From positions 1 through 64,000 of the forward strand of contig JANWVV010000017.1 of assembly GCA_025055795.1 (NCBI GenBank): a stretch of DNA of 64,000 nucleotides, written 5' to 3'. Below are positions 59,922 to 64,000 of the stretch, piece by piece (the stretch's first letter is position 1; every line of letters starts with the position of its first letter). This DNA is from Gemmataceae bacterium (GTDB lineage Bacteria; Planctomycetota; Planctomycetia; Gemmatales; Gemmataceae). Both the position numbers and the translations under genes were made by a program. The notes under the pieces are model-generated. The model worked only from the letters and a program-made list of their open reading frames with translations, ran no database searches and was not told the DNA's origin.

Positions 59922-60143
59922 TTAGATAATACCGCCATGGATGCGATCCGGCGTCAGGTGGCTGGGCTGATCGTTGAACCAGAAGCGTCGCCATTCCCCT
60001 TCGATCTGCCGCAAATCTTCCGATTGGTACAGCAGTTGCTGCATCCGTGTGTTCGGATCACTGGAATATTGATTGAGGATGCAACCGGTGGGCAGCGTCA
60101 CCGTCAGGGCCGTTCCCCCCAACAACAGCAGTTTACGGACCAT
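59922..60143 (-). CDS. Small putative lipoprotein
   Basis: MVRKLLLLGGTALTVTLPTGCILNQYSSDPNTRMQQLLYQSEDLRQIEGEWRRFWFNDQPSHLTPDRIHGGII; lipobox-like LPTGC. Confidence 0.65.
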   Translation of the reverse strand: MVRKLLLLGGTALTVTLPTGCILNQYSSDPNTRMQQLLYQSEDLRQIEGEWRRFWFNDQPSHLTPDRIHGGII

Positions 60144-60524
60144 ACCACCCTCCATGTGTTCGGCTGGCGCCCACTGGCCGAGCGTACCGCTGATGGTTCC
60201 CCCGCGACCATCCACACGGTACGGTTGGCACATTTCCCATTATCGGCACGTACCAGCCCCGGCTTGAATCGATTCTGATGGGTTTATTGATTCGGCTTGG
60301 CAATCCTGATACAGCGGGAAAATTGGCCGTAGCGTCGATTGTTTGGTGTGCTTATGAATATGCTCAGATTAAAACTTTCCAAAGCCGGAGCATTACCGTC
60401 TGAAGAGCAACAACAAATAGCAGTGGGTAAGAGAAACTAAATCACGTTCTAGTATAGACACAGGCGGTACAAGAGGGAAAAAGCGAAAAGGCGCACTCAC
60501 GCAAAGATACGCTAAATTAGGCAT

Positions 60525-63500
60525 ATGGGATTTCTTTGTTTCCCACACTGGGGGATGCTGCGTCTGACGGTGAGTCATGAGATAGTCCCATCGGCATGGA
60601 CGCAGTGCCCCGTGGACTGGGCGGAGGACAACTGCGGGCAGGTGTGGTTCCGTCTCGTGACCGCTTTGCCTGCTGCGGTGCAGGAGAAGCTGAGCCGCCT
60701 GGGGGTACGCAGCCACAAGGAAGCTCCGTCGTTGGCCTTCCAGCAGGTGTGTTGCTGGGCGGCCGCCCATCCCTTGGAGCCTCAGTCACAGCCGGAGTCC
60801 CCGGCGCGGATCCTGGTGCGGTTGTCGGCCGAGGCGTTACCCCTGTTACTGCGGGGGCGGCCGGCCCTTTTGTCACAAATCCAACTGATCGGCGACGACT
60901 GGCAACAGAAGGTGGTTTGGGCAGTGGTGCTCGAGCCGTCTATCGCTGGGGCTGAATTCTGGCAGCACCATGGGCAGGTCTTCACCGAGCAGGTTCCCCA
61001 TCTCTGGGTCCCTTGGGGCTGGTACCATCCGCTGGCAGAACACCTTCCCATCCCTGCTGGCAAAGAATGCATCATCACTCCCCCAGCACAGATGCATTTC
61101 ACTAATTTGATGCCGATTCCGTCCGCCACTACTGCCAGCGGACAGGATCTTAATCCGCTGCCTCAGATCGATGGGACACCACACTTTGTGTGCACACCGG
61201 TTCCGTCGATCCCCCTCCCCTTGCAGTGGTCGCCGCGGCAACAAACAGAGGCTTCGCCAGCGTTATGCTTCATTCCGCGGAAAGAGATGGATGCGTTCCA
61301 CCATTTTTGTCTGCATGGCGACCCTATCAGTAGGGCAGGCCTGTGGGTGGCCTTCGTAAAACAGGATGAACAGGAAGGAGTACTTGTGTGGAACCGGACC
61401 AAGGAACCGGGGGTACTGCTGGAACTGGAGGGTCGAGGGCAGGCTTACGTCGCAGACGAACGAATGCCACATTGGTTCTGGCCCCAGGGCTGGCACCTCA
61501 GACCCGTGCTAGCACGCGAGGCATACGCCGCCTTGGCCCCCGTGCAACTTTCAACTCTCGTTTGGTGGCAACAAACGGAAAAAAACTCCGTCCGCTGTCA
61601 CTACGCCGACCTTTCCATCTTCCAGCCACTGGAAGCATACATCCAGTATGAGTTTCCTGCTCCCCAACAGGCTGTAATGCTAGAGCCTTTGCCATGGGAA
61701 CCACCTACCTGGACCACTCAGGAGGTAAACTCAGAAACGGAACAGGGGAGACGGTATGGAATTAGCAACAGTGTCACGGCCTGGCGTCCCGGACGCCGGA
61801 GAAGCACGACAACTCCAGGGCAGCCGCTGATAGCAGCCCGGGGCCGATCATCGCAAGGATGGTTCGAATCCTGGCGTCGGTGGTGGCGGAAAATCGTCGA
61901 GGTACGGACAGAGTGGCTAGCCCGCCTCCGACAGGCTTGGACTGCCTCAACACCAAAGCAGCGTCAAGCGGAAAGTTTTTCCTTGGATCACACCCTTCAA
62001 CAGCAGCTACTAGCGCGGGCCGAAGCGACGATTATCAGAATGAGTCCGAGTCATCGGCTGCCAGAAAGCTACCAACGGTTACTAGCCCATGTACTGGAGA
62101 GCGAGTCGGACGAGCGGTTGCCCGAATGGTGGGCTGAACTGGCCCGCTGGAAGCAAGCCCATGGGCAGGTCACAGACGCCGCTTTATGCTGGTTGATGGC
62201 TGCGTGGACCAGTCCGGAAGAGGTAGCAGCGGCGGATTGGGAACGACACTGGTGGCGGACCGAGTTGCAATTGGCGCAGGCTTCGGAAAGGTTGGTCTGT
62301 CAGGCGACGTTTTGGGAAGTTGGTCAGACACGGCCTGCGTTGGGTCGGCTGGCCGCCGCCGGCTTGGTACAACTGAACCGAGGCAACAAAGCCTTAGGGC
62401 GGGAGCTGGTCCCCGTGTTGCTTCAGGTCCTGGAACGTCACGCAGAGACCGTGCCACTCCGGGCGTGCTGGCTGGGGGTGCAAGCGGCTTCCCACCTCAG
62501 CGGCGGCGATGCGGTACTGCTGGCCCGCTGGGCGGAACGCCTCCTAGAGCGACTGAGCAGATGTGGCCAGTTGTCGGAAGTAGACCTGCCCACCTCCGTA
62601 CGTTACTGGGGGCATAGCACGTCTGATGGATCGCTAGCTGCAGCCGCGGCCTGGTTGGTTCGCCATCGCCAGCAAGTTGTCCAGTGGATCGAGCGTTTGC
62701 CTAAAGGACCACTACGCGCCGAAGGGCTGGACGGCGAAACGGAAACAACCAGTCAGGTAGCCCTTCTGCTAATGGCCTGGGGTGCCGCAGCTGTGGGAGA
62801 GCGGCGACGGGCTGCGGAATGGCTTAGCAACGTCGGGCACTCCAGCAGTCGGCTCGACCCCGAAATCCAGCCGGCCTTGCGCCTCGTGGAACAACTGACG
62901 GCCGAACGCATCCAAGAGGTCGGAGAAGGCCTGCGACCACGTCCCTGGCCGCCCGCGTTGAAAGAAAAGGCACGTCTGAGTCTGCCCCCAGCTGCCCGCT
63001 ACGCTGTTGAACGCCTGTGCGAGTACGTCCGCATTCTGGACCCCTACCCGATGTGCCGCCCCCTGCGCAGTTGGGAATTAGCCCCGCTGCGGGACGACGA
63101 TCTGCTCGGCGAACGTCTGGCGGTGCTGCTGGAGCACTCGGACAGCGAAAACACCGGCGGTGAAGCAGAGGAATTGCTCCGCCTGGCTGGGCAGACTAAC
63201 GAAGCGGGATGCCGCGGACGCATTCTGACGGCACTGTGCGAGGTGGCCGCTGGTCTTCCCCTCGAGTTGGTCCAACGGTTCGACTCGCTGCTCCCGCAGG
63301 GCTGGGAAGCTCTGGCCCAATGGTGGCCGGATCCACCGGCCAACTGTCCAACTCCGATAACGCACCTGAGCCGGACGGAAGTTCTCTGCCGGACGTTGGA
63401 AAATCTCGTGCGGGCCGCGGCCGAATGGCCCGCGGATCAAGCCGCCCCCTGGATCGCCCAGCTCTGGCAACACTGGCAAACAGGCACGGACCGGGCCGAC

Positions 63501-64000
63501 TGCCTGTTACCATCTACGGCATTTCTCCTGGCCGATGTATTCCGCCGTCTGCAGTTGGACAAACAACTAGAGACTCTGGCCGAACGCTGTAAGAGGGCCG
63601 GTTGGCTGGAACCCCACGCGGACTGGCCCTGCCGCCTGGCAGCGGCTACTGTCGGACTGGCCCAAGGCATTGGCGACCCGGCCGAGCGGATCCTGGATGA
63701 AGCCCGGGACCGCTTATTTTTGCCCCCTGCTCCTCCCCCCTTGACATCGCGCCAGTACACCCGCCTGGCTTGGGACTATGCTAGCACGATCGCCTTTCTA
63801 TCACTGCGTCGTCGTCTGGGCCGCTACGAGGAACTGTTCCAGCGGCTACGCCCCATTCACCTCCACGGCTCGACCAACCGCTTCTGGACCCTACAACCTC
63901 TCCGCCTCGTCGACATTGTCATCCGCGGCATCGTCGGTCCGGCCTACCGTCTCAGCCCAACATTACAACAGTGGCTGAATCTGGAAGACCTGCGCATCCG
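60525..64000 (+). CDS. Very large multidomain protein of unknown function, 3' end beyond window
   Basis: Own translation from ATG 60525 (or 60555, MLRLTVSHEIVPSAWTQCPVDWAEDNCGQVWFRLVTALPAAVQEKLSRLG...) shows no stop to 64000. Trp-rich N-terminal part, long Leu/Ala/Arg-rich alpha-helical C-terminal part. Absent from the ORF track (no in-window stop). Confidence 0.85.
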   Translation, partial: MGFLCFPHWGMLRLTVSHEIVPSAWTQCPVDWAEDNCGQVWFRLVTALPAAVQEKLSRLGVRSHKEAPSLAFQQVCCWAAAHPLEPQSQPESPARILVRLSAEALPLLLRGRPALLSQIQLIGDDWQQKVVWAVVLEPSIAGAEFWQHHGQVFTEQVPHLWVPWGWYHPLAEHLPIPAGKECIITPPAQMHFTNLMPIPSATTASGQDLNPLPQIDGTPHFVCTPVPSIPLPLQWSPRQQTEASPALCFIPRKEMDAFHHFCLHGDPISRAGLWVAFVKQDEQEGVLVWNRTKEPGVLLELEGRGQAYVADERMPHWFWPQGWHLRPVLAREAYAALAPVQLSTLVWWQQTEKNSVRCHYADLSIFQPLEAYIQYEFPAPQQAVMLEPLPWEPPTWTTQEVNSETEQGRRYGISNSVTAWRPGRRRSTTTPGQPLIAARGRSSQGWFESWRRWWRKIVEVRTEWLARLRQAWTASTPKQRQAESFSLDHTLQQQLLARAEATIIRMSPSHRLPESYQRLLAHVLESESDERLPEWWAELARWKQAHGQVTDAALCWLMAAWTSPEEVAAADWERHWWRTELQLAQASERLVCQATFWEVGQTRPALGRLAAAGLVQLNRGNKALGRELVPVLLQVLERHAETVPLRACWLGVQAASHLSGGDAVLLARWAERLLERLSRCGQLSEVDLPTSVRYWGHSTSDGSLAAAAAWLVRHRQQVVQWIERLPKGPLRAEGLDGETETTSQVALLLMAWGAAAVGERRRAAEWLSNVGHSSSRLDPEIQPALRLVEQLTAERIQEVGEGLRPRPWPPALKEKARLSLPPAARYAVERLCEYVRILDPYPMCRPLRSWELAPLRDDDLLGERLAVLLEHSDSENTGGEAEELLRLAGQTNEAGCRGRILTALCEVAAGLPLELVQRFDSLLPQGWEALAQWWPDPPANCPTPITHLSRTEVLCRTLENLVRAAAEWPADQAAPWIAQLWQHWQTGTDRADCLLPSTAFLLADVFRRLQLDKQLETLAERCKRAGWLEPHADWPCRLAAATVGLAQGIGDPAERILDEARDRLFLPPAPPPLTSRQYTRLAWDYASTIAFLSLRRRLGRYEELFQRLRPIHLHGSTNRFWTLQPLRLVDIVIRGIVGPAYRLSPTLQQWLNLEDLRI

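Follow-up and report, generated by a model that had tools for sequence, protein, structure and literature searches.

The FtsH ternary system corresponds to vWA-MoxR subsystem 3 of Kaur, Burroughs, Iyer and Aravind (eLife 2020, PMC7159879), in which the ternary machine was proposed, from comparative genomics, to be a biological-conflict system. This description is computational, and our literature search turned up no experiments on the FtsH class. The simpler type of the system consists of FtsH (AAA+ and M41 domains), a MoxR with a TAKS P-loop, an ivWA protein with a helical N-region, a radical SAM protein (rSAM), and the fvmX3-analog (X3a), fvmX5 (X5), fvmX6 (X6) and fvmX7 (X7), all of which are shared by the Gemmataceae genome studied here. 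Unlike the described system, this genome has a duplicated X7, and one of the copies (X7b), the MoxR gene and the ivWA gene lie on contigs other than that of the core. Furthermore, the core operon here includes RtcA, which is absent from the main text of PMC7159879. The MoxR-vWA-beta-propeller ternary system is also related, as the MoxR of this genome matches PF20030, the model named after that system, and the X7 proteins of two relatives are weakly bpX2-like (E 0.0006 and 0.005). However, the vWA partner found here is the ivWA of the FtsH class, and no beta-propeller-vWA fusion was seen.

Identification of the fvmX7b gene

The window, i.e., the whole stretch of DNA analysed, comprises bases 1-64000 of contig C87 (79,399 bases), which belongs to a draft genome (G000) of 4.4 Mb in 267 contigs. 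At the right end of the window, a plus-strand ORF starts with an ATG at 60525 and stays open through the window end (1158 codons inside the window); rightward extension along the contig closes it with a stop at 64050-64052, 52 bases beyond the window, for a total of 1175 codons (60525..64052). The encoded protein matched Pfam family PF20005 (fvmX7, "FtsH ternary system domain X7") over its first ~353 residues (E 2.8e-24, 86.3 bits; gathering cut-off 24 bits) and aligned over its full length with the ortholog from a second member of the genus (G001), with 42% identity. Because of this match and this end-to-end alignment, the ORF is a genuine gene and a chance ORF is excluded. The ATG at 60525 is plausible as the true start, since the family members begin alike (M-x-x-x-F-P). 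An NCBIfam search with the protein gave matches at chance level only, and nearly all matches in a PDB sequence search were designed helical proteins, a composition effect.

In a tree of 69 X7 proteins, built by a quick method and containing several long branches, the window protein was placed with the X7b of G001 inside an X7b clade (17 rows, SH-aLRT 100) and apart from X7a. Of the two X7 paralogs of the Gemmataceae FtsH ternary system, the window protein, judged by sequence, is the second, fvmX7b, which evolves the faster; while its N-terminal domain scores above the Pfam cut-off, the 800 residues of linker and solenoid that follow lie outside the Pfam model. A third X7-like lineage, whose grouping rests on long branches, was seen at standalone sites (L049:8874-11645 in G010 and L054:6590-9967 in G008). 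Upstream of X7b and divergent from it, a small ORF on the minus strand (59922-60233) has a lipoprotein-like signal (LPTGCILNQYSSD), and its true start is probably internal.

The large ORF had been recognised in the initial annotation, correctly, from the open frame at 60525. Its presentation as part of an undescribed protein system does not hold, since Pfam covers the domain and Kaur et al. 2020 (PMC7159879) described the system. The accompanying guess, a subunit of a MoxR/vWA "ternary" system, was right in kind, and the PF20005, MoxR and ivWA matches specify the FtsH class.

Domain organisation of fvmX7b

The AlphaFold2 model of the whole protein (45 aligned sequences) had a mean pLDDT of 80.8, and the features are as follows.

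60525..64000 (+): fvmX7b coding sequence; of its 1175 codons, 1158 lie in the window, with the stop at contig positions 64050-64052
60525..61640 (+): N-terminal alpha/beta domain, residues 1-372, PF20005 (fvmX7); AlphaFold2 pLDDT 87.8 when modelled alone
60999..61085 (+): first Trp/Pro motif, residues 159-187, consensus PRVWVxxGxxHPLAxxLxxPxG, conserved columns W161, G165 and P169
61452..61541 (+): second Trp/Pro motif, residues 310-339, consensus LPNLFxPxGxRLxPxLRRDxxRxLLA, P327 invariant and P320 nearly so
61653..61991 (+): low-confidence linker, residues 377-489, pLDDT <50 at 377-444 and 472-492, basic helix at 446-473
61992..63998 (+): alpha-solenoid, residues 490-1158, helices only (AlphaFold2); the conserved C-terminal tail runs beyond the window

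In the model, the N-terminal domain appears to be internally duplicated (95-193 and 247-362), because the order of strands and helices repeats, and each copy carries one of the two Trp/Pro motifs. The linker is predicted to be mostly disordered, with a single basic helix. This anatomy agrees with what had been read from the letters at the outset: both Trp/Pro motifs coincide with conserved columns, residues 446-473 form a basic helix, and residues 490-1158 are all helical. As was also stated then, no catalytic motif was found in the window protein. Hydropathy revealed no membrane segment in it. Foldseek searches against the PDB returned nothing under E 1e-3 for either the whole model or the N-domain model, and the weak matches of the whole protein were TPR/HEAT/PPR-like (best E 3e-3, TM 0.13). 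Ferredoxin/ACT-like homology of the N-domain was not accepted, the PDB matches being too weak, and X7 is not taken for the missing vWA protein, with no vWA-like fold among the Foldseek hits shown.

Partner genes in the window genome

On the 3' side, X7b is followed by a gene for a PQQ-propeller protein and then, as read from translations, by genes for a sulfatase, MoeA, Lnt, two ATP-grasp ligases and a lysine-aminomutase-like enzyme. The partners had been expected just past position 64000, but no ATPase or vWA gene was recognised in the 15 kb downstream, and they are found on other contigs. The core cluster lies on contig C201 in the order RtcA, radical SAM, fvmX6, fvmX5, FtsH (AAA + M41), fvmX3-analog and X7a, where X5 and X6 have their only copies in the genome and where X7a scores 211 bits against the Pfam model, versus 86 for X7b. 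The FtsH of this cluster matched PF00004 (AAA+, E 2.8e-42) and PF01434 (M41 peptidase, E 6.7e-30), and its Walker A (GPPGTGKT), Walker B (IIVFDEID) and zinc site (HEAGH, HExxH) are all kept. Unlike classical FtsH, which carries a membrane helix, it has none by hydropathy. FtsH proteins of the ternary system are expected to have a second, inactive AAA domain at the N-terminus; here, the ~300 residues ahead of the active AAA domain are without a GPPGxGKT P-loop, and also without a Pfam AAA match. PADLOC hits of this FtsH to IetA/TRIP13 were discarded, as they covered the generic AAA domain alone. The radical SAM gene beside X6 matched PF13353 (E 1.9e-31) and PF04055 (E 5.3e-07).

A solitary gene on contig C33 encodes the ternary-type MoxR (PF20030, E 4.1e-61) with the P-loop GPPGTAKS, and a GxxxTAKS variant of the MoxR P-loop has been noted for ternary systems (PMC7159879). 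The ivWA protein, encoded on contig C22, has a helical N-region and matched the ivWA and helical_N models only (PF19997, E 2.9e-35; PF19996, E 1.2e-16). The genome encodes each of the three components named for the ternary core, on separate contigs, and the core, X7b, MoxR and ivWA together are spread over four (C201, C87, C33 and C22) and do not form one neighbourhood. Because ternary components stand together in a myxobacterial MAG (L195; X7-MoxR-ivWA, consecutive), the spread is read as secondary dispersal, which weakens the notion of one locus but not the identity of the parts.

The order X6-X5-FtsH-X3a-X7 recurs in many of the fetched planctomycete and myxobacterial loci, often with rSAM before X6 and MoxR after X7 (MoxR adjoins X7 in 15 relatives of the first fetched set), so recurrence of the neighbourhood, raised in the initial annotation, was confirmed.

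Several other genes were observed around these loci. A TMEM43-family (PF07787) membrane protein is encoded beyond RtcA on C201 (L005:17084-18001), in a myxobacterial locus the fvmX3-analog and X7 are separated by a Band_7/SPFH gene (L188:13504-14337), and an ordinary MoxR + DUF58 pair lies ~4 kb from the X7 cluster of G016 on the opposite strand (L041:1023-3395). In G075, G069 and G072, a MoxR-like gene stands beside RtcA. The MoxR-like genes near RtcA or the cluster in these three genomes and G016 were not accepted as partners, because those scanned (G075 and G016) proved to be MoxR of the ordinary AAA_3 type.

Distribution and co-retention

Among 95 genomes of the family, X7 was present in 70, X5 in 66, MoxR in 70 and ivWA in 63, while X7, X5 and ivWA were found in 0/14 control genomes. 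In the 66 good family genomes (>=90% complete, <=5% contaminated), all four markers were present in 50, none in 11, and one or two were missing in 5. X7 and MoxR were both present in 53, with X7 only in 0, MoxR only in 2 and neither in 11; the corresponding counts for X7 and ivWA were 52, 1, 1 and 12. Each marker pair was associated in these genomes with Fisher p 3e-11 to 5e-9, by a test that ignores shared ancestry. The contrast occurs even within one genus (g13), in which three good genomes (G095, G097 and G099) are without all four markers and two others (G013 and G096) have them all, although X7, X5 and MoxR-ivWA are on different contigs in G013. We take this co-retention as evidence, from gene content, that X7, the FtsH cluster, MoxR and ivWA form one functional unit even though their genes are scattered.

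Beyond the family, few genomes of the phylum carry X7 (11/294 matched, the window's own included), and no match was found in 72,556 plasmids (X7a as query) or in 50,697 phages (X7b as query). In many Gemmataceae, the first gene of the fvm operon is RtcA, which encodes an RNA 3'-terminal phosphate cyclase (C201 copy, L005:15664-16719). It was not retained as an obligate part, as its presence across genomes did not significantly track X7 (p 0.11), and the association is positional only.

Putative role of fvmX7b

We consider it reasonably likely that X7b serves a MoxR-ivWA/soluble-FtsH machine in trans in this species, as an adaptor or scaffold with no catalytic activity of its own. The protein would be soluble, its duplicated alpha/beta N-domain would dock on the machine, and its alpha-solenoid, tethered by the flexible basic linker, would recognise or hold a client. 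The MoxR AAA+ ATPase and its ivWA partner may then remodel or load the complex, and the soluble FtsH-like AAA+ zinc protease may unfold or degrade the delivered client; X7a and X7b, as the two adaptors, could differ in specificity. That a complex forms, that X7b is an adaptor and that the output is proteolytic are all inferred, as is the biological purpose of the machine, and client binding by the solenoid is proposed by analogy, because the solenoid resembles the TPR/HEAT/PPR proteins of the PDB weakly. The solenoid subunits of the 26S proteasome offer a similar analogy, with a weak fold resemblance and an alike supposed role beside an AAA+ protease, but with no significant structural or sequence match to X7b.

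Against the adaptor role, the window copy lies near none of the partners and could be a drifting paralog, as it shares only 42% identity with the ortholog in G001, compared with 86% for FtsH. X7a (43%) and X6 (45%) are similarly divergent between G000 and G001, and MoxR is 80% identical. Slow FtsH and MoxR with fast X7 and X6 would fit either a conserved engine that carries variable recognition subunits or scaffolds under loose constraint.

Housekeeping or biological conflict

Two purposes can be considered for such a machine, and both are compatible with X7b as an adaptor. The first, to which we give close to an even chance, is a housekeeping machine for protein-complex assembly or quality control in Gemmataceae and myxobacteria, in which the X7 proteins would bring substrates to a soluble FtsH as its adaptors, with no part in defence. 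The genes are single-copy and dispersed yet kept together, the X7a and X7b subtrees broadly correspond, and FtsH and MoxR are strongly conserved; the absence of all four markers from 11 good genomes nevertheless implies that the machine is dispensable.

The second purpose, also credible but with the smaller share of our confidence, is that of a conflict machine as in Kaur et al. (PMC7159879), in which X7 would sense an invader and the complex would release an effector, perhaps a radical-SAM-modified peptide, that stops the infection or kills the cell. Membership in the same system class, the much faster evolution of X7 and X6 than of FtsH and MoxR, and the presence of RtcA, an enzyme of RNA 3' ends, in many loci agree with it. 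However, there is usually one core per genome, X7 occurs in 53/66 good family genomes, and the parts are dispersed in the chromosome; besides the absence of X7 from plasmids and phages, PADLOC gave no match for X7, MoxR, ivWA, X6, rSAM or RtcA, and no effector gene was recognised beside the window X7b. Because the system is usually single-copy, dispersed, co-retained and absent from plasmids and phages, we lean slightly towards a housekeeping role in Gemmataceae.

Displacement of fvmX7b

In G001, the genes are arranged as RtcA-rSAM-X6-X5-FtsH-X3a-X7a-X7b-PQQ, followed by a small convergent ORF. The window retains X7b, PQQ (72% identical) and the small convergent ORF (44%) as a block, separated from the other genes. 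Since MoxR (beside a homoserine dehydrogenase-like gene) and ivWA (beside an amidohydrolase-like gene) occupy matching places in both species, the neighbours being named from their sequences, gene order indicates that X7b alone has moved within the genus, relative to G001. X7b is also separated from X7a in G033 and in G075, G069 and G072, with ~2 Mb between the two X7 genes of G075 on a single contig of 4.9 Mb, and the core, MoxR and ivWA are hundreds of kb apart on the single contig of G063.

That the displaced and divergent X7b is a relic, cut from its operon and decaying, is unlikely. Its Pfam score is well below that of X7a, but the gene runs for 1175 codons without a stop, aligns with its ortholog over the full length and retains the family-invariant residues, and the X7b of G001, still in the operon, is equally divergent with a similar score (96 bits). 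An assembly or binning artefact hiding an X7b that truly sits beside the core, conceivable in a draft of 267 contigs, is highly improbable given that X7b is well away from the ends of its 79 kb contig, that the core sits in the interior of one of 187 kb, where a TrmE-like gene follows past X7a, and that alike splits occur elsewhere (G075 and G063). X7b is probably still working with the core locus in trans despite its displacement.

An anonymous large ORF has become a named component of a predicted AAA+ machine, whose X7b partners in Gemmataceae would be missed by operon-based searches. We tentatively suggest that the Gemmataceae FtsH ternary machine might be a cellular system that is single-copy, dispersed and vertically kept, with X7a and X7b as diverged solenoid adaptors that assemble in trans, and coupled through RtcA to RNA 3'-end processing, and not a clustered conflict cassette. 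The pattern of dispersed yet co-retained genes calls into question the conflict-system reading for Gemmataceae.
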